Shown here: piece after piece, positions 4,276 to 30,836 of the stretch | Position numbering within the stretch: position 1 is the stretch's first letter | How the letters are laid out: the number at the start of each line of letters is the position of its first letter | Origin: a virus | IMG/VR virus record: IMGVR_UViG_3300042452_000298 | Location: 1 to 30,836 of that record | Strand: one strand, 5' to 3' | DNA: 30,836 bases | Notes under the pieces: model-generated | Database searches by the model: none | Told to the model about the DNA's origin: nothing | The model's input: the letters and a program-made list of their open reading frames with translations, nothing else | Made by a program: the position numbers and the translations under genes

Positions 4276-4824
4276 TTATTGTTGTATTGTAGCCTTTGGG
4301 CAGGCCGCGATGGCTGATTCGACGGTCTGCCGGAGCCGCTCGATGGTCGACCAGTTGCCGATCACGCGGTCGATGAGCAGGGGGTCGACGCCGCCCTCGC
4401 TGGCGTGGCGGGCCGCCAGCCCCTTGATGCTGCCAAGCCCGCGAACGACCTGCCAGATGACCCCGCCTGCCGCCTTGATCGCCGCCGCCTCGTTGTCGAA
4501 CCTGCAATCCGTGACGACAACGTCGCGGCCCTCGTCGAGCAGCCGCTGCACCCGCCGCATGGCCGTGTCGACCCAGATCGACTGGCTGATCGTGTCGCGG
4601 CCCCACTCCGTGCCGAGGGTCTGGAGGAGCTGCCTGGGAGACTGACCAAGCCAGTCAATCGGCCGCTCCTTCGCCTCGCGGTCACGCATCTCGGCCGGTG
4701 TCAGGCCGGTGACGATCGAAACCATCTCGTACAGCGGGTCGGCAAACGCTACCCGGTCAAACCCCAGGATGCTCGCGACCGTGTCCTTGCCGCTCCCGGC
4801 CGCCCCACACATACCGATCAGCAT
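4276..4824 (-). CDS. Deoxynucleoside monophosphate kinase-like P-loop protein
   Basis: A 182-aa protein with a P-loop at residues 7-15 (GAAGSGKDT). It then has AFADPLYEM, the family-typical SPRQLLQTLGTEWGR segment, and VVVTDCRFDNEAAAIKAAGG, which matches the Walker B/switch part of phage dNMP kinases (T4 gp1-like). The family phosphorylates deoxynucleoside monophosphates to supply nucleotides for phage DNA synthesis. It is placed in the late operon downstream of a phosphoesterase gene, which is unusual for a nucleotide metabolism gene. The ATG follows the upstream TAG directly (TAGATG). The 3' end encodes ATIQQ and carries a copy of a motif repeated elsewhere in the window. Confidence 0.85.
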   Translation of the reverse strand: MLIGMCGAAGSGKDTVASILGFDRVAFADPLYEMVSIVTGLTPAEMRDREAKERPIDWLGQSPRQLLQTLGTEWGRDTISQSIWVDTAMRRVQRLLDEGRDVVVTDCRFDNEAAAIKAAGGVIWQVVRGLGSIKGLAARHASEGGVDPLLIDRVIGNWSTIERLRQTVESAIAACPKATIQQ

Positions 4825-5016
4825 CTAGTCGTGCCTTCCTAGCCACTGCGGTGGCGGGTTGTTTTCCATCATCGCGACCCGGTACTTGAGCCGCTCGATC
4901 TCCTCCAGCGCCCGGCCCAGGGCTGCTGCGAGGGTGCCGTTCGCTGCCGTCCAGGAGTTCGGCGGGCCGTATTTGTTCACCAGCAGCCACGCTCGTTGGA
5001 TTTCGTCGTTGGTCAT
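4825..5016 (-). CDS. Small hypothetical protein
   Basis: A 63-aa protein starting MTNDEIQRAWLLV. The ATG at 5016 forms an ATGA overlap with the stop of the phosphoesterase gene. A longer reading frame upstream is possible but lies inside that gene. The middle (about 30-48) is a predicted helix, AALGRALEEIERLKYRVAMM. No family recognised. It is placed between two nucleic-acid or nucleotide enzymes and is probably co-translated with them. Confidence 0.6.
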   Translation of the reverse strand: MTNDEIQRAWLLVNKYGPPNSWTAANGTLAAALGRALEEIERLKYRVAMMENNPPPQWLGRHD

Positions 5017-6095
5017 TTCTTGCTCTCGCGGAGGTCGCGGTCGCACCAGATCGGCATCGCCTTCGTCACCTCGTTCCGCGAATGGTCAATCACCACCGCG
5101 GCTTGACAAGGAGCCTCGAAGCCAGCCTTGATCCGCACCGTATAGCTGGAGTGGCCGATAACGCTCCCGTTCGATACATACCGCCCGCCCCGGAGCCAGC
5201 CAAACGAGTGGTAATGCCCAAAGCAGGTGAGGCTGGCCCTCCGGCTCGCATCCCATGCCGAGATCGCCTTCATGGCCGGCAGGGCGAGGCCGTAGACGCC
5301 GCCTGAATACTTGATCGAGAACCCATGTAGGAAGCGGATCGTGAAGTCGTCGACATCGACGTAGTTCAGCTCGCCCTCTGCCACCTGCCAGCGGACGTTT
5401 GGCTTCGTCTCAGCCGCCGCCATCATCAAATACAGATTCTGTTCAAATGAGTGATCCAGTTCCGTCTGGCAGCGGAGCTTGGGGGTACTCCTGCCATGAT
5501 TGCCGCTTGAAGTCGCCACGACGACTTCGTCTGCGTTCTCGGAGACGGCATCGACGAACGAACGCATCCGGCCGCCGATCCACCGGCAGGCAGCCAGCGG
5601 CGCAAGTTGGCTCGTCTCGGCCAACTCCTCGTGGATATGACCACTGATCATATCGCCGCCAAACCAGATCACGACGCGGCCGATGTCGGCAAGCTGCCGT
5701 TCGTGCTCGAGCAGCGCGAAGAACCGGCTCTGCAATTCGGCGAGTCGCCGGTCGCAGATGTCTAGCGAATACTGGTTGAGGCCGTTGGTTTCCGCATACG
5801 ACACCGGCTCCTCGCAGTGGACGTCGGAAATGAGCACCACCATTGTGGCTGGATTCTTGCCGCGCTTCTTCGGCTTCGTGGCTGGCCTGCGGACGGCCTT
5901 GATGCCCCGGAGGCCGACGAGCGTGTCGGCCCGCGACCGCTCGGCGTCAAGTTGGCGGATAGCCGACTCGTACTTCTTGCGAACCGACGAGAGTTCATCC
6001 CGCAGCCGCGCCGCCTCGGCGTCCTTGCCGACTTCTACTTGTCGGGCGACCGCAGCCACCGACTGATTGTTTGTTCGGCCTCTGGAGCGTGCCAT
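5013..6095 (-). CDS. Calcineurin-like metallophosphoesterase with N-terminal coiled coil
   Basis: A 360-aa protein. The ATG at 6095 is chosen because GGAGG lies 4 nt before it. Residues about 20-60 are charged and helical (coiled coil), followed by a basic linker (PATKPKKRGK). The catalytic domain has all metallophosphoesterase motifs: D91-x-H93 (ISDVHCEE), GGD at 146-148, GNH at 198-200, H257 (FLHGF) and GHYH at 293-296. The family hydrolyses phosphomonoesters or diesters, including nucleic acids (Mre11/SbcD relatives), with two metal ions. The substrate here is unknown. The 5' end overlaps the previous gene by 61 bp in another frame, and the 3' end overlaps the next start as ATGA. Confidence 0.85.
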   Translation of the reverse strand: MARSRGRTNNQSVAAVARQVEVGKDAEAARLRDELSSVRKKYESAIRQLDAERSRADTLVGLRGIKAVRRPATKPKKRGKNPATMVVLISDVHCEEPVSYAETNGLNQYSLDICDRRLAELQSRFFALLEHERQLADIGRVVIWFGGDMISGHIHEELAETSQLAPLAACRWIGGRMRSFVDAVSENADEVVVATSSGNHGRSTPKLRCQTELDHSFEQNLYLMMAAAETKPNVRWQVAEGELNYVDVDDFTIRFLHGFSIKYSGGVYGLALPAMKAISAWDASRRASLTCFGHYHSFGWLRGGRYVSNGSVIGHSSYTVRIKAGFEAPCQAAVVIDHSRNEVTKAMPIWCDRDLRESKK

Positions 6096-6298
6096 CCAAC
6101 CTCCGTGCAACGGGCGACGATTCCGCGATACACGGTGACGATCGGTGCTCCCTGAAGAGCACCAGACAACCACTCGCGTTTCACCTCACTCATCTCGGCC
6201 TGCGCCTCCGTGGGCAGGCGACTGAACCATGATCGTTTTGGGCGATGGATCGTGCCGACGGCCTGCACGACGCTTTGCAGTGCGGACTTCTTCGCCAT
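6035..6298 (-). CDS. Small basic hypothetical protein
   Basis: An 87-aa protein starting MAKKSALQSVVQAV. The ATG at 6298 has GGAG 8 nt upstream, overlapping the stop of the metallopeptidase gene. The sequence RLPTEAQAEMSEVKREWLSGALQG..IVTVYRGIVARCTEVGW..EAEQTISRWLR looks all-helical and could be a small DNA-binding (helix-turn-helix-like) protein. I do not recognise a family. Its 3' end lies under the 5' end of the phosphoesterase gene in another frame. Confidence 0.6.
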   Translation of the reverse strand: MAKKSALQSVVQAVGTIHRPKRSWFSRLPTEAQAEMSEVKREWLSGALQGAPIVTVYRGIVARCTEVGWHAPEAEQTISRWLRSPDK

Positions 6299-25730: not shown

Positions 25731-27307
25731 GACTTCGTAGCCTCCTCATACGGCTTGCCGGAGCGGTGGCACTCCAGAAGCAGGTTTCGCGATTCTTCCA
25801 TCCACCCATGCACAAATGCGTCGATGTCTCGTCCCGTCGCCTGGGCGGCGTCCACGAGTTCCGTCTTCATCCGCTGCTCGTGGGCCTCGAACCAGGCGGT
25901 GATCTTGGCCGGCTTGCTGCGGCGCTCCACGATGCCGTCCGCTTCGATGGCCGCGAGGCGTCGGAGCGTCGTGCGGAAGAGAACTTCGGCTGCCGACCGC
26001 TCGCCACCAACGGCAGCATCGCCGGGAGTCGGGCCTTCGTTGCCGTCCGTGGCCGGTTCGTTGGCCGGAATCGGAGCCGTCTGTGGCTGGGTCGCTCCGT
26101 TCGGATTGTTGACCGTGAAGGCGTCGAGCAGTTGCATATTCACCTGCACGAAACGCTTGTTGCCGACGCCGTCGGGGAGCGGGTTGTAGCCGATCTGGCC
26201 GCGAATCTCGTCGACCGAGAGGACGCCCATGTTGAACATCTCCCGCATGAACTGGCTGCGAGCCTGGTAGTCGCCAGCCATGAGCGCGGAGACGTCGAAC
26301 TCTACGAAGTAATTCCGATCGTCGGTGATGAGGTCGCGGCGGCAGGCAAACTGCCAGCGTCGGCAATGTGGGATCAGCGAGAACGTCGCGAAGTCGATGG
26401 CCCCTTGTTCCACCGTCGAATAGCGGACGTTGGTCAGATCGCCAAGCAGATGCAAAGGCACGCGGTAGGCTCGGCTGATCTCCTCGACGGCGTAGCGTCG
26501 CGTGGCGATCAGCTCGGCGTGCTGGTTGTTGACCGGGTCGCTCTTCTTGTGAAATCCGTGCGGCATGACCACGGTTTTGAATGCCTTGTCGGGGCCGCGA
26601 TGGGCCTCGTCCCACTGCTGCTTGAACCGCTGGAGCGCCTCGGGCTTGTGGGGCTGATCGGTTTCGATGTAGGTGCCGCTCGTGGCCCCATTCCCGAAGA
26701 ATGCGGACGAATGCAGTTCCGTGGCCCTCGCCAAGGCGATGGCGTCCTTCGACAGGGTTGTCGGCACATACCCGGTCACGCCGTCGCTCGAGAGCCACCG
26801 CAGGTGGAAGACCTGATCCTGGCGGTAGAGCGTCGGCGTCGGCTTGCCTTCTTCGGTGTATTGGTACTGGAGTTTGCCGTTCTCCAGGCGAACGACCTTC
26901 ATGCGGCTGGCATGGAGCGGGATCAGTTGGTCGACGGCCCCGCGGCGGCCGGGCTTGATAAGGCAGTAGCCGTTGCCCCAGAGGAGCAACTGGCTCATCA
27001 TCCACTCCCGCCACTCAAAACTCGTCATCCAGTCGTTCGGCTGGTAGGCGAGCACTTCCTGGAGTGGCTGGTCTTCGGCGATCTCTTTGCCGCCGCCGGG
27101 GAGCCGGCGGTAGAGGTTGAATGGCATCGACGCTATTGATTCAGAGAGCACGCGGACGCAGGCGAGCACCGCGCTGCATGAGAGACTGCTCTCTGGCGAG
27201 ATCGTGACGCCGGCAGCCGTCTTCTGGTTGCCGATGATCTCCTCGAACACGCGGGAGAGGCTGTACCGCATCTCCATCAGGTCTTCGACGTCGGCGGTTT
27301 CGTCCAC
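25697..27307 (-). CDS. Portal protein (HK97-type)
   Basis: A 536-aa protein with the typical phage portal sequence: SLSCSAVLACVRVLSESIASMPFNLYRRL near residues 40-70, QLLLWGNGYCLI, HASRMKVVRLENGKLQYQYTE, VFHLRWLSSDGVTGYVP, EEISRAYRVPLHLLGDLTNVRYSTVEQGAIDFATFSLIPHCRRW and GVLSVDEIRGQIGYNPLPDG. It forms the dodecameric ring through which DNA enters and leaves. The GTG at 27307 overlaps the stop of the large terminase gene (TAGTG). A later ATG at 27277 is possible but has no better ribosome binding site. The C-terminal part (about 430-536) is acidic and less conserved. Confidence 0.93.
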   Translation of the reverse strand: MDETADVEDLMEMRYSLSRVFEEIIGNQKTAAGVTISPESSLSCSAVLACVRVLSESIASMPFNLYRRLPGGGKEIAEDQPLQEVLAYQPNDWMTSFEWREWMMSQLLLWGNGYCLIKPGRRGAVDQLIPLHASRMKVVRLENGKLQYQYTEEGKPTPTLYRQDQVFHLRWLSSDGVTGYVPTTLSKDAIALARATELHSSAFFGNGATSGTYIETDQPHKPEALQRFKQQWDEAHRGPDKAFKTVVMPHGFHKKSDPVNNQHAELIATRRYAVEEISRAYRVPLHLLGDLTNVRYSTVEQGAIDFATFSLIPHCRRWQFACRRDLITDDRNYFVEFDVSALMAGDYQARSQFMREMFNMGVLSVDEIRGQIGYNPLPDGVGNKRFVQVNMQLLDAFTVNNPNGATQPQTAPIPANEPATDGNEGPTPGDAAVGGERSAAEVLFRTTLRRLAAIEADGIVERRSKPAKITAWFEAHEQRMKTELVDAAQATGRDIDAFVHGWMEESRNLLLECHRSGKPYEEATKSWTDRANLNDA

Positions 27308-28809
27308 TAAAACACCACCAATTCAGGGTCAGTTTCGGGGCCGTGGAGTTCGCCGCTGGCGATACCGAGGGCCATGATCAGGGCCACGGCGGCGTCGATG
27401 CGGTAGGTCGAGCTAGAGTGTTGCTTTGTAGGCTTTAGGTTCCCGGCGTCGTCGATCTTCACCTGCACGTTCGACATCTGCCAAGCCAAGCAGGGGTTCG
27501 CTGCGTGCCGCAGTTTCTGGCCCAAAATCAGCGTATTCAAAAATTTCGTCGGCGCTGACATCGACGCAAAGCCTTGTCCAAAAGGCTTGACGTCGATGCC
27601 TTCGGACGCGAGTTGCGTCGTCAGGTGCGTCGCATTCCATCGGTCGATTGCGACAGCCCGAACCGCATTCTTCTCGCAAAACGAGAGAACGTAGTCGCGA
27701 ACCACGTCGTAATCCGTAATATCGCCTTCTGTTAGTGTAACAAAACCGTCCTTCGCCCATTGCCGATACGGCACCCGATCGGTCTTCGACGCCTTCTCTG
27801 CGTTGTCGCCTGGGATGAAGACCTGGCAGTGGATGTCGAACGTGCCGTCCTCGTCGGGCCACACCGCGACGAACGCCGTCGTGTCCGATGTGCTCGACAA
27901 GTCGAGGCCGCAGTAGGCAACGCGGCCGGCAGTGGGCCGCAGGGGGGCGTTGTTCGCTTCCCACGCTCCGTGTCGCAGCCACTTGGATTCCGACTGACAG
28001 AACTGGTTCAAGTGGAGCGTTCTGAAGACGATCTCTTCGCTCGGTGACTGCTTCGCCCGCAGGCTCATCTGGTGGAAGTAGTCCGGCTTCAGCGTCACGC
28101 CGTAGTTCGGGTTCGCCATCTTCCACGTTTCTTCGACGAACGGGTCGGCGTCTGGCGGCGCGGCATAGATGCAGGGCAGGAACGTGTCATCCTTGAGGAC
28201 GCCGTCGCGAATCTTCTCAGCCCGCTGCCAGTCCTTGTAGCACGGCCCCTGCATATCCGTGCCCGCTGTCGTGATGTAGACGGTGAGCGGCTGGGATCGT
28301 GCACCCATACCCGTTTCCAGGACGTCGACCAGCTCGCGGTCGGGGAAGACGTGATATTCGTCGATCAGCACGCACGAGGGGTTGTAGCCGTGTTTCGTGC
28401 CGGCTTCGGAGCTGATGCAGAACATCGACGCATTGCGTTCCGGCACCACGATGCTGTTGCGGTAGACCTTGGCTCGTCGGGCCAACGAAGGGCAGGACTC
28501 GAGCAGATGCTTGGCCGCGGTGTGCAGGAGGCTGGCCTGGGAGCGGTCGCCGGCCGCGACGATCACCTCGGCGCCGATGTCATCGCAGAAGGCCATGTAG
28601 AGGCCGAGGGCGGCGGCCAGTTGCGTCTTGCCGTTCTTGCGCGGCAGGGCCAGCAGGCTTGTGCGGTATTTCCGCAGGCCGTCTTCGCGCTTCGTGTTGA
28701 GCAGGCGATCGAGGTACTCGTCCTGCCACGGCTCCAACAGAAACTGCTGCCCCGCGAAGTCTCCGCGGGAATGCTTGAGGAGCGCGATGAAATCGCGGAT
28801 GTCAACCAC
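27307..28809 (-). CDS. terL: Terminase large subunit
   Basis: A 500-aa protein with an ATPase and a nuclease domain. The Walker A-like motif is PRKNGKT (R57-T62) and Walker B is CVLIDEYH (D150, E151). The nuclease acidic residues appear to be D303 (CGLDLSS), D389 (AIDRW) and D472 (RIDAAVALIMAL). This is the pattern of the Terminase_1/HK97-type family. It packages DNA into the prohead and cuts the concatemer. It starts with GTG at 28809, overlapping the small terminase gene by 8 bp; no ATG is available close by. The C-terminus ends PELVVF. Confidence 0.94.
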   Translation of the reverse strand: MVDIRDFIALLKHSRGDFAGQQFLLEPWQDEYLDRLLNTKREDGLRKYRTSLLALPRKNGKTQLAAALGLYMAFCDDIGAEVIVAAGDRSQASLLHTAAKHLLESCPSLARRAKVYRNSIVVPERNASMFCISSEAGTKHGYNPSCVLIDEYHVFPDRELVDVLETGMGARSQPLTVYITTAGTDMQGPCYKDWQRAEKIRDGVLKDDTFLPCIYAAPPDADPFVEETWKMANPNYGVTLKPDYFHQMSLRAKQSPSEEIVFRTLHLNQFCQSESKWLRHGAWEANNAPLRPTAGRVAYCGLDLSSTSDTTAFVAVWPDEDGTFDIHCQVFIPGDNAEKASKTDRVPYRQWAKDGFVTLTEGDITDYDVVRDYVLSFCEKNAVRAVAIDRWNATHLTTQLASEGIDVKPFGQGFASMSAPTKFLNTLILGQKLRHAANPCLAWQMSNVQVKIDDAGNLKPTKQHSSSTYRIDAAVALIMALGIASGELHGPETDPELVVF

Positions 28810-29281
28810 GCTTGGAGAGCAGGGCGTCCATCGGGTCGTCGATGACCTTCACCGCCCCGTACCCGAGGCGAGTGCGGTCGGCCGGCGTCAGGCCGAGGAC
28901 GGTTTCGAGGTGCCGGAGCATCTCGCCCGACTCCTTGAACTGGGTCGCCATGCCGCAGGGTCGGACGAACCGGAGGCTGCCGTCGGTGTTCGTCACCTCG
29001 ACGTAGACAACGTCCATCTCCTGGAGCTTCTCAGCGGCGAACTCCCAGATGACGTAGGTCGCGGCGTATCTGGCGATCACTGCCTCGTCGGATTCCGCGA
29101 GCGTACCCATGTTCGTCAGCCAGGCGACGACGTTCGCGAAGATTTCCTTGGCCCGAGGCTTCAGCCAGGCCGGCGGTTCGAGCGGGGCGGCGGGGGCGGC
29201 GCCGAGTTCCTCGCGGTTCTTCGCGTGCTTTGACCCGCGGAGGGTCAGAATGTGCTTCGGCGTTGGCGGGCGGCCCTTCAT
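28802..29281 (-). CDS. terS: Terminase small subunit (P27 family)
   Basis: A 159-aa protein starting MKGRPPTPKHILTLRGSKHAKNREE, the classic start of the P27/Terminase_4 family (G..P.P...L.G.). It continues with PAWLKPRAKEIFANVVAWLTNMGTLAESDEAVIARYAATYVIWEFAAEKL and a C-terminal helix with GLTPADRTRLG. It binds the packaging site on phage DNA and regulates the large subunit. It is the first gene of the leftward operon; the ATG has only AGAGG close by. The intergenic region upstream contains a 12-bp tandem repeat. Confidence 0.92.
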   Translation of the reverse strand: MKGRPPTPKHILTLRGSKHAKNREELGAAPAAPLEPPAWLKPRAKEIFANVVAWLTNMGTLAESDEAVIARYAATYVIWEFAAEKLQEMDVVYVEVTNTDGSLRFVRPCGMATQFKESGEMLRHLETVLGLTPADRTRLGYGAVKVIDDPMDALLSKRG

Positions 29282-29436: not shown

Positions 29437-29516
29437 ATGGCCGAGACGATGGCCGAGACGATGGCCGAGACGATGGCCGAGACGATGGCCGAGACGATGG
29501 CCGAGACGATGGCCGA
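29437..29516. repeat. 12-bp tandem repeat, six full copies plus a partial copy
   Basis: The unit ATGGCCGAGACG is repeated perfectly six times (29437-29508), followed by an 8-bp partial copy. It lies about 155 bp before the small terminase start. A multiple of three, it gives M-A-E-T repeats on the plus strand, but the frame has no clear coding character. It may be the terminase recognition site (cos/pac) or iterons of an origin; neither is shown. Confidence 0.9.
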
Positions 29517-29581
29517 CGATTCTCAAAAACTAAATGTCCGAAACAATCTGCCGCAAAAAACCGGCCGGAAATACTGTAGCC

Positions 29582-29609
29582 TTGACACACGATTGGCCGA
29601 CGCTATTCT
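29582..29609 (+). promoter_or_regulatory. Sigma70-type promoter for the rightward gene
   Basis: A perfect -35 TTGACA (29582-29587), a 16-bp spacer and a -10-like TATTCT (29604-29609), with the expected transcription start about 50 bp before the ATG at 29669. The leader contains two TCGGCCGA palindromes (29620 and 29631) directly downstream of the -10 element, where a repressor could bind. Confidence 0.6.
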
Positions 29610-29668
29610 TATGTCGACGTCGGCCGATTGTCGGCCGATCGAATTACCCTAGTTGCGAAGGATTCAAA

Positions 29669-30694
29669 ATGAGCTGCGCCCAACTGCCCGCACGATTCAA
29701 GGCCCCGAAAATCGCTCGAGACGAACGCCGATCGGCCGCGACCGAGAAAACGGAAAAACGGTCGACGCTCACGAGCGCCACGGTCGACGTCGAGAGAATG
29801 GAGGGCGAATACCCTATCTTCCGAATTAGATTCGAGAATGCGGCCGGAGACGTGTTTACGGGCTCGTGGGATTCGCGCCGCCCGCTCCTCTCGGCGAACA
29901 GCAAACTCCGAAAAGGCCTCGGCCGATACCGCGCGATCGGATTGGCGCTCGCCCCGTGGAAGTTTGCAGGCAAGGGTAACCTATGCGGCGCCGCGTCAGC
30001 TGGCTGCATCGACGCGTGCAACGGCCTATGGTCCGGCATGAATGTAACGCCGTCGACCCGGTTCGCTCTAATCGGCCGGGCCCGATTGTGGATGGAGTTT
30101 CGCCCGCTGTTTCTGCGCAAACTGCGAGAGGAGCTGGCAAACTTTGAACGGCTCTGCATCCGAACCGGCCGCATTCCGGCGGTTCGCCTGAACGTCTCGA
30201 GTGATATCCCATTCGAGCGGGTCGCCCCGGGAATTTTCGCCGAATTTCCGCGAATCCGTTTTTACGATTACACGGCCTACGCTGCCGACAATCGGTCGTC
30301 GCTGCCCGGAAATTACCAGCTGGCGCATAGTTGGAAGGAGACGACGACGTTTGACTATGTCGAAAGCGTAATCGGCGCCGGTCGAAATATCGTTGTGCCG
30401 TTTGATTCGGCCTACGCTCCCGCCCGAAAGCTATTCGGAGCACTGCCAGAGACGGTCGTTTTCCATTGCCGACATACCGGGAAAACGATTTCCGTCCGGG
30501 TCGTGAATGGAGACAGGCATGATTTCCGCATGCGGGAGACGGACGGGTCGGGTGTTTGCGTTGGGCTCCACGGGAAATCGGGGCGTGGCAGGGTAACGGC
30601 CGCGGTCGACTCGGGATTCATGCGCCACCATGCCGAGGGGTCGACACTGCGGCGTAAGACGATCCATGTCGGCATCGTCCATGTCGAATGCTAG
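29669..30694 (+). CDS. Cys-containing protein of gp88/DUF7227-like type, function unknown
   Basis: A 341-aa protein starting MSCAQLPARFKAPKIARDERRS. The ATG at 29669 has AAGGA 7 nt upstream and stands after a good promoter; an earlier start is unlikely. The first 40 residues are basic. Core features: SANSKLRKGLGRYRAIGLALAP, then C106, C113 and C117 (LCGAASAGCIDAC), FRKLREELANF-like helix, VRLNVSSDIPFERVAPGIFAEFPRIRFYDYT, NYQLAHSW, and the end NGDRHDFRM ... VCVGLHGKSGRG. I recall this layout from widespread phage and plasmid proteins annotated as gp88 or DUF7227, whose activity is not known to me. It is the only complete gene on this strand. Confidence 0.72.
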   Translation: MSCAQLPARFKAPKIARDERRSAATEKTEKRSTLTSATVDVERMEGEYPIFRIRFENAAGDVFTGSWDSRRPLLSANSKLRKGLGRYRAIGLALAPWKFAGKGNLCGAASAGCIDACNGLWSGMNVTPSTRFALIGRARLWMEFRPLFLRKLREELANFERLCIRTGRIPAVRLNVSSDIPFERVAPGIFAEFPRIRFYDYTAYAADNRSSLPGNYQLAHSWKETTTFDYVESVIGAGRNIVVPFDSAYAPARKLFGALPETVVFHCRHTGKTISVRVVNGDRHDFRMRETDGSGVCVGLHGKSGRGRVTAAVDSGFMRHHAEGSTLRRKTIHVGIVHVEC

Positions 30695-30836
30695 GGGTCA
30701 GAATGGCACGACGGCGCCGGCTCGAGCTGGCGCCGTCGGCCGATCCCGATGGTGTGCGCTCCACCCCTGGTGCTCGAGACGATCGTCACAAACTGGACGC
30801 CGGAGCCGTCGAGTTTCCCGAGGAACTCGCAGGGCC
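30691..30836 (-). CDS. Partial reading frame entering from the right edge
   Basis: From the right edge a frame of 47 codons (CEFLGKLDGSGVQFVTIVSS, then TRGGAHTIGIGRRRQLEPAPS) runs to a TAG at 30693-30691. Third positions are nearly all G or C, as in real genes of this window, so it is likely the C-terminal end of a protein. It shares the palindrome CTAG with the stop of the rightward gene, giving converging genes that overlap by 4 bp. No family recognised from so short a piece. Confidence 0.45.
   Translation of the reverse strand, partial: PCEFLGKLDGSGVQFVTIVSSTRGGAHTIGIGRRRQLEPAPSCHSDP
30711..30736. terminator. Long GC-rich inverted repeat after the rightward gene
   Basis: ACGGCGCCGGCTC pairs with GAGCTGGCGCCGT, 13 bp with one G-U pair and a tight loop, starting 17 bp after the stop of the rightward gene. 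There is no U-run on the plus strand. It could stop or slow converging transcripts, but it also lies inside the partial minus-strand frame. Confidence 0.4.

Follow-up and report, generated by a model that had tools for sequence, protein, structure and literature searches.

GP88, a common phage protein family homologous to DUF5131, as a probable divergent radical-SAM-type enzyme

Radical-SAM enzymes use an iron-sulphur cluster to start radical chemistry, and members with cysteine spacings other than the canonical one are known. In spore photoproduct lyase (SPL), we take the Ser-Asp after strand 2 and the serine of strand 4 to contact SAM, and the cysteine just before TSD to be the hydrogen donor. 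Two phage families are considered here beside that enzyme. DUF5131 (Gp37/Gp68, PF07505) is frequent in phages (at least 593 relatives among 600 pattern-matched stretches), and in a published table a phage Gp37Gp68 protein is called "ssDNA-annealing". GP88 (PF17338) is a common phage gene without function, present in the well-studied mycobacteriophage D29, whose gp88 matches the family at 2.8e-55 and is probably the source of its name.

In the literature searched on GP88, PF17338, phrog_1617, DUF5131, DUF7227 and phage radical SAM (PMC3765255 included) we found no paper tying GP88 to radical SAM. Nor did the literature searched give a function for GP88, in agreement with a preliminary description of the locus that knew of none. 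We present the homology between GP88 and DUF5131 as new, although annotation had partly glimpsed it, since one GenBank record labels a GP88 homologue "Gp37/Gp68-like". On profile comparisons and predicted structures, the GP88 gene product is probably a divergent, active radical-SAM-type enzyme that shares a branch with DUF5131 and has its cysteines unusually spaced. If so, GP88 would have a defined cofactor and defined residues for mutagenesis, would be open to standard anaerobic assays, and would extend the superfamily by a further cysteine spacing. DUF5131, on the same evidence, has a clear radical-SAM fold beside SPL.

The GP88 gene and its relatives

The window, i.e., the whole stretch of DNA analysed, is an IMG/VR record of 30,836 bases that is the sole member of its assembly, and it is from a tailed phage. 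The gene under study is:

29669..30694, + strand, GP88-family open reading frame, 341 aa in translation (PF17338 E 6.9e-24; phrog_1617 E 3.9e-40)

Its product scores 85.4 bits against PF17338, for which the gathering cut-off is 24.4, and is assigned in PHROGs to phrog_1617, of unknown function. Of the earlier label "gp88/DUF7227-like", the first half stands and the second is not confirmed, the Pfam scan of the window protein returning GP88 alone; a viral protein labelled DUF7227 matches the GP88 model by fold at E 0.25 only. PADLOC and NCBIfam gave no family for the protein, and a PDB sequence search returned nothing, its profile finding only weak unrelated rows. A longer version of the frame, starting at an ATG at 29534, is unlikely because a promoter-like site lies inside the extension and homology begins at MSC. 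Purifying selection on the frame is seen against three relatives, L002 (dN 0.035, dS 0.60), L003 (dN 0.12, dS 2.1) and L005 (dN 0.21, dS 1.7), which are those covered by the comparison, dS against L006 not being computable.

Among 50,697 phage records, 264 contain a relative of the window protein; Mycobacterium phages account for 235 of these, and phages of Pelagibacter, Roseobacter and Caulobacter are among the others. A relative is also encoded by at least 533 of 600 pattern-matched viral stretches. A search of 72,556 plasmids gave 0 matches, so that the earlier statement that these motifs recur in many mobile elements holds for phages but not for plasmids. When two peptide patterns for the close subfamily were run on the genome collection, 42 stretches matched a pattern and none encoded a relative; a broader GP88 query, for a group to which the window does not belong, gave 34 loci among 60 pattern matches, on bacterial and archaeal genome contigs.

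The segments singled out at the outset (C-x6-C-x3-C, NVSSDIPFERV and FYDYT) are all present, at positions conserved well above chance. In the window protein they appear as C106-x6-C113-x3-C117, R173-x-N175-x-x-S178-D179 and F198-Y199-D200-Y201-T202, followed by S221 and D282-x-x-D285-x-R287. A six-frame HMM search of 133 loci matched 132 and yielded 130 distinct sequences, and the window protein has every feature derived from their alignment: C-x(5-7)-C-x3-C, NxxSD, DY and GDxxDxR. The three cysteines keep that spacing in 128 of the 130 relatives (C106 in 129, C113 in 128, C117 in all), with a first gap of six residues in 95, seven in 26 and five in 7, and a second gap that is always three and in 0 of 128 two. 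The canonical radical-SAM spacing, CX3CX2C, is therefore not that of the window protein. Two relatives fall outside the pattern, L051, which is short and at a contig end, and L120, a Planctomycetota copy in which the second motif cysteine is replaced by Tyr, possibly an inactive member. No invariant fourth Cys or His accompanies the three cysteines in a set of 68 sequences.

Around them, R173, N175, D179, D200, S221 and D285 are invariant (130/130) and D282 is kept in 125, so that the NxxSD, DY and Ser positions are near-invariant throughout. The residue after FYDYT is Lys in 116 sequences, Ala in 9 (the window clade among them) and Pro in 5. The window clade thus differs from the rest of GP88 in having Ala for this Lys and, in addition, in an extra N-terminal beta region at about residues 34-68. 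One of the 68 GP88 proteins has a weak Latrotoxin_C match in Pfam (E 4.6e-4).

Homology to DUF5131 and the radical SAM fold

By profile comparison GP88 is homologous to DUF5131, as a sister family. Run against 190 whole genomes of one bacterial class, the Pfam GP88 model matched 8, and the sole true GP88 among these is in the centre genome, picked because it carries one. The other seven matches (E 8e-8 to 8e-4, three of them above the curated cut-off) all fall on DUF5131 loci, DUF5131 being present in 25 of the 190 genomes. The same model matches 11 of 21 DUF5131 proteins at E ≤ 1, the best at 2.1e-7.

Profile-profile alignment with hhalign was done with three sets: A2, 68 GP88 sequences (63 from 80 viral loci plus the window, L002, L003, L005 and L006, with duplicates, truncated and mis-started frames excluded); A7, 21 of 24 DUF5131 sequences drawn from 29 loci; and A8, a narrower set of 56 viral DUF5131 proteins, out of 71 sequences drawn from 80 loci. 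A2 against A7 gave a probability of 89.6% (E 1.9e-6), in a register that aligns cysteines 1 and 2, N-x-x-S-D and T-K, and 69.5% in the opposite direction. The reversed profile gave 0.06% and 120 column shuffles at most 0.4%, while masking all cysteines left 80.5%. Against A8 the value was only 24.9%, in the same register. PF07505 itself matches neither the window protein nor anything else in the window, and the 25 families listed for the members of A2 do not include it.

The predicted structure of GP88, modelled from the 68 sequences (pLDDT 84.8, pTM 0.84), was compared by Foldseek with a viral library, where 15 rows reach E ≤ 1e-3 and the usable names are GP88, Gene 88, Gp37/Gp68-like and uncharacterized. 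Against the PDB, neither this model nor that of DUF5131 (pLDDT 95.3) had a Foldseek match at E ≤ 1e-3. A second-look structural aligner was also run, for GP88 on the 1000 chains that Foldseek ranked highest. For GP88 the best entry by Z is SPL (Z 6.7, rmsd 5.5, 216 aligned residues, a Z that the tool rates as middling), and radical-SAM enzymes fill ranks 1 to 20, other folds appearing from rank 21. These 20 comprise SPL, ChlB, QueE, NifB, TYW1, a methyltransferase, SuiB, DesII, BlsE, viperin-like enzymes, PqqE and BtrN. A Z under 8 was judged insufficient on its own for fold assignment. The DUF5131 model aligns with SPL at Z 13.3 (rmsd 3.0, 195 aligned), has radical SAM in 49 of 50 listed entries, and in Foldseek has SPL in its best six rows, with E from 1.6e-3. 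As modelled, DUF5131 plainly has a radical-SAM fold, nearest to SPL.

In the GP88 model the three cysteines follow strand E87-91, which by our own assignment is the first barrel strand; S178-D179 come after strand 2, and the invariant S221 ends strand 4. It is the homology to DUF5131, together with near-invariant cysteines after the first strand, the S-D after strand 2 and the strand-4 Ser, that leads us to read GP88 as a [4Fe-4S]/SAM enzyme. C106, C113 and C117 would hold the predicted [4Fe-4S] cluster, whose fourth iron would bind SAM, and host flavodoxin or ferredoxin would supply the electron. Cleavage of SAM would then give a 5'-deoxyadenosyl radical able to take a hydrogen atom from a substrate putatively held by R173, N175, D200, D282, D285 and R287. 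Since SPL and viperin neighbour the DUF5131 model, our best guess, by analogy, is that the substrate may be a nucleotide or nucleic acid.

Several points count against this reading: the modest Z of GP88, the lack of a PDB match in Foldseek at E ≤ 1e-3, a second cysteine spacing of 3 and not the usual 2, the loss of the lysine, the lower hhalign values with A8 and in reverse, the absence of any conserved neighbouring partner, and SPL profile comparisons that are not significant. The last gave 4.2% for GP88 and 1.3% for DUF5131, where 30 shuffles each reach 2.2% and 1.6%, and 6.3% for the A8 set. The SPL profile was clostridial, built from the 15 of 28 loci that passed a motif filter, on stretches trimmed to begin about 95 residues ahead of that motif, not on full genes; the motif meant is that of the cysteines. 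None of these 15 SPL sequences has Cys just before TSD, so its absence from GP88 is not counted as evidence. Nor does the window protein have a row for the SPL family PF20903 or for Pfam Radical_SAM, and the latter is likewise missing from the 25 families listed for A2, where single-member rows extend to E 0.29.

One could take that missing Radical_SAM row, the modest Z and a cysteine spacing unlike the canonical motif as signs of a TIM-barrel-like protein with a non-radical activity, in which the three cysteines hold structural zinc or nothing. We regard this as unlikely, given that GP88 is homologous to DUF5131 and the DUF5131 model is clearly radical SAM, and given that a near-invariant Cys trio is better suited to a site-differentiated [4Fe-4S] cluster than to zinc because it comes with no invariant fourth Cys/His ligand.

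Alternatively, fold and cluster may have been kept and SAM chemistry lost, leaving a degenerate radical-SAM protein that senses redox state or regulates by binding nucleic acid. Such a protein would be in keeping with the extra N-terminal beta region of the window clade and with the loss there of the lysine after strand 3 (14 of 130 sequences overall), a change that we count as genuine evidence against a simple SPL-like SAM site. We nevertheless consider loss of the chemistry distinctly unlikely, for the six invariant polar residues named above form a catalytic-type set maintained in all 130 sequences across very different phages. With an active radical-SAM-type enzyme as the preferred reading, the preliminary description's "unknown activity" can be narrowed, on the models, to that enzyme type, its reaction not being recognisable. 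A structural match to a well-known enzyme, which that description had set against its own view, is accordingly half there: the fold class can be recognised, the reaction cannot.

Genomic setting and timing of the GP88 gene

As described earlier, the gene opposes the late operon, with terminase, packaging and head genes all on the − strand, and a promoter-like site upstream supports the claim of its own promoter. The features around it are:

27307..29281, − strand, terminase small and large subunits (phrog_83, phrog_9), start of the opposed late operon
29439..29510, + strand, six perfect tandem 12-bp copies of GGCCGAGACGAT, upstream of the promoter-like site
29582..29609, + strand, sigma-70-type promoter-like site TTGACA-16-TATTCT found by scan, with GGCCGA in the spacer (29595-29600)
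29618..29639, + strand, two direct copies of TCGGCCGAT, at 29620 and 29631, just after the promoter-like site
30709..30738, + strand, 13-bp GC-rich hairpin without a T run, directly after the stop codon

The promoter-like site matches at 10 of 12 positions, where shuffles give 0.5 per region, a chance rate computed for the window. Similar sites lie less than 400 bases upstream of the gene in four of five relatives scanned (L002, L003, L005 and L006, not L020), at -86 to -90 from the start codon in L002, L003 and L006 and at -342 in L005, and the spacer GGCCGA is kept in three of the four, L003 having GGCCCGA. GGCCGA/TCGGCCGAT repeats flank the site, and five of the seven copies of TCGGCCGAT in the window lie beyond 29380. 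CGGCCGAT is only mildly enriched over the whole window (14 copies versus 7.6 expected). From its position just past the promoter-like site, the TCGGCCGAT pair is a possible operator. In the alignment, by eye, the GGCCGAGACGAT array has a counterpart in L002 and a similar GC-rich repeat in L006, with none in L003 or L005.

Downstream, RNA folding of 30695-30800 gave a z of -2.67, with 5 of 200 shuffles equally good, and in L002 the hairpin is the same with one pair changed on both sides (alignment by eye). All sites that the terminator scan reported are on the − strand, with none on the + strand; the hairpin is possibly the 3' end of a single-gene unit. Direct repeats occur just downstream of GP88 in L003 (7066-7199), L005 (6600-6740) and L006 (7070-7167), with periods of 76, 60 and 49 bases. 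Their units differ between relatives, the contigs of L003 and L005 end within them, and of the three stretches only that of L003 folds more stably than shuffled sequence (z -3.3). A position of the gene at a physical end of the genome was considered and dropped: direct repeats come just after it in the contigs L003, L004, L005 and L006 (none in the window or L002), so that assembly breaks are as likely.

A syntenic relative of 44 kb (G001; terminase 79% and GP88 85% identical) carries an integrase, two helicases and a primase, from which we consider phages of this kind probably temperate, the integrase being known from that relative and not from the window. Elsewhere on the − strand of the window, that of the late genes, are a deoxynucleotide monophosphate kinase-like gene (PF21448) and an exonuclease (phrog_284) at 4276-6173 and, at the left end (258-2097), laminin-G-like and weak glycosyl-hydrolase-43-like proteins, perhaps of the tail tip or receptor-binding. 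Across 119 loci with mechanically called frames, no recurrent partner gene was found near GP88, the largest shared family occurring in 6 loci, and guilt by association was dropped for that reason. Neighbours are on the same strand upstream in 95 and downstream in 89 of 113 cases. Four loci (L130, L131, L132 and L136, from three Planctomycetes and one Epsilonproteobacteria) have a common gene just upstream of GP88 that is RadC-like by eye.

For the suggestion that this is an early gene, the evidence is mixed and indirect. Counted inward from a genome end, the GP88 homologue ranks first to third among the annotated genes in 5 of 13 phage regions but lies elsewhere in 8. D29 gene 88 is the second annotated gene from the right end, where the early lytic promoter Pleft is placed by PMC5712189. 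In Kampy the highest read coverage is reported upstream of its gene 88, which is identified by number and not as GP88 (PMC4626039, PMC7474061 and PMC5712189), and a toxic-gene screen has 0 mentions of "gene 88" or "gp88".

In the giant Tunturiibacter phage Tunturi_5 (L008, 3419-4753) GP88 is fused to an InPase domain (PF18823, E 5.9e-34), and the record annotates the fusion as a minor head protein. PMC5512222 describes InPase domains in phage polyvalent proteins as likely packaged in the virion, and contains 0 occurrences of "gp88" or "radical". Although this fusion and the likely packaging of such domains would suit an effector delivered by the virion in place of early expression of the gene, a question of timing and delivery and not of chemistry, that reading is very unlikely, as Tunturi_5 provides the only one of 207 open frames longer than 450 aa, and in the window a separate promoter-like site precedes the gene, which runs against the late genes. 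With a single such frame, large GP88 fusions are rare in the loci examined.

Returning to a radical-SAM-type enzyme, the gene gives the impression of a one-gene unit that has a promoter to itself and faces away from the late operon, for which reason its product would probably act early or in the lysogen, with a host or phage nucleotide as the putative target. We may speculate further, and doubtfully, that GP88 is a phage radical-SAM family with a new C-x5-7-C-x3-C motif, by which marine podophages, mycobacteriophages and giant phages alike alter a nucleotide or nucleic acid during the opening minutes of infection, for host takeover or counter-defence.

Comparison with viperin-like enzymes, SPL and DUF5131

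Viperin-like enzymes are the second fold-match group for the DUF5131 model, with best rows at Z 11.0 to 11.6, whereas the GP88 model has one such row only, at Z 4.7. SPL (4fhc and others) is the best fold match by Z of both models, and in its sequence S-D and T-K can likewise be read, behind strands 2 and 3 respectively; it carries CX3CX2C, however, a spacing that GP88 does not have. The lysine after strand 3 is the invariant K of TKR in DUF5131, is also part of TK in SPL, and is Ala in the window.

DUF5131 differs from GP88 in its cysteine motif, C-x6-C-x2-C(-Y) compared with C-x6-C-x3-C, and in LTKRP and GGESG, two motifs of its own that are absent from the GP88 consensus. Common to both families are the C-x6-C spacing of cysteines 1 and 2, an N-x-x-S-D that follows strand 2 and a T-K that follows strand 3, and DUF5131 has an SD and a Ser/Thr of its own where GP88 has S178-D179 and S221.
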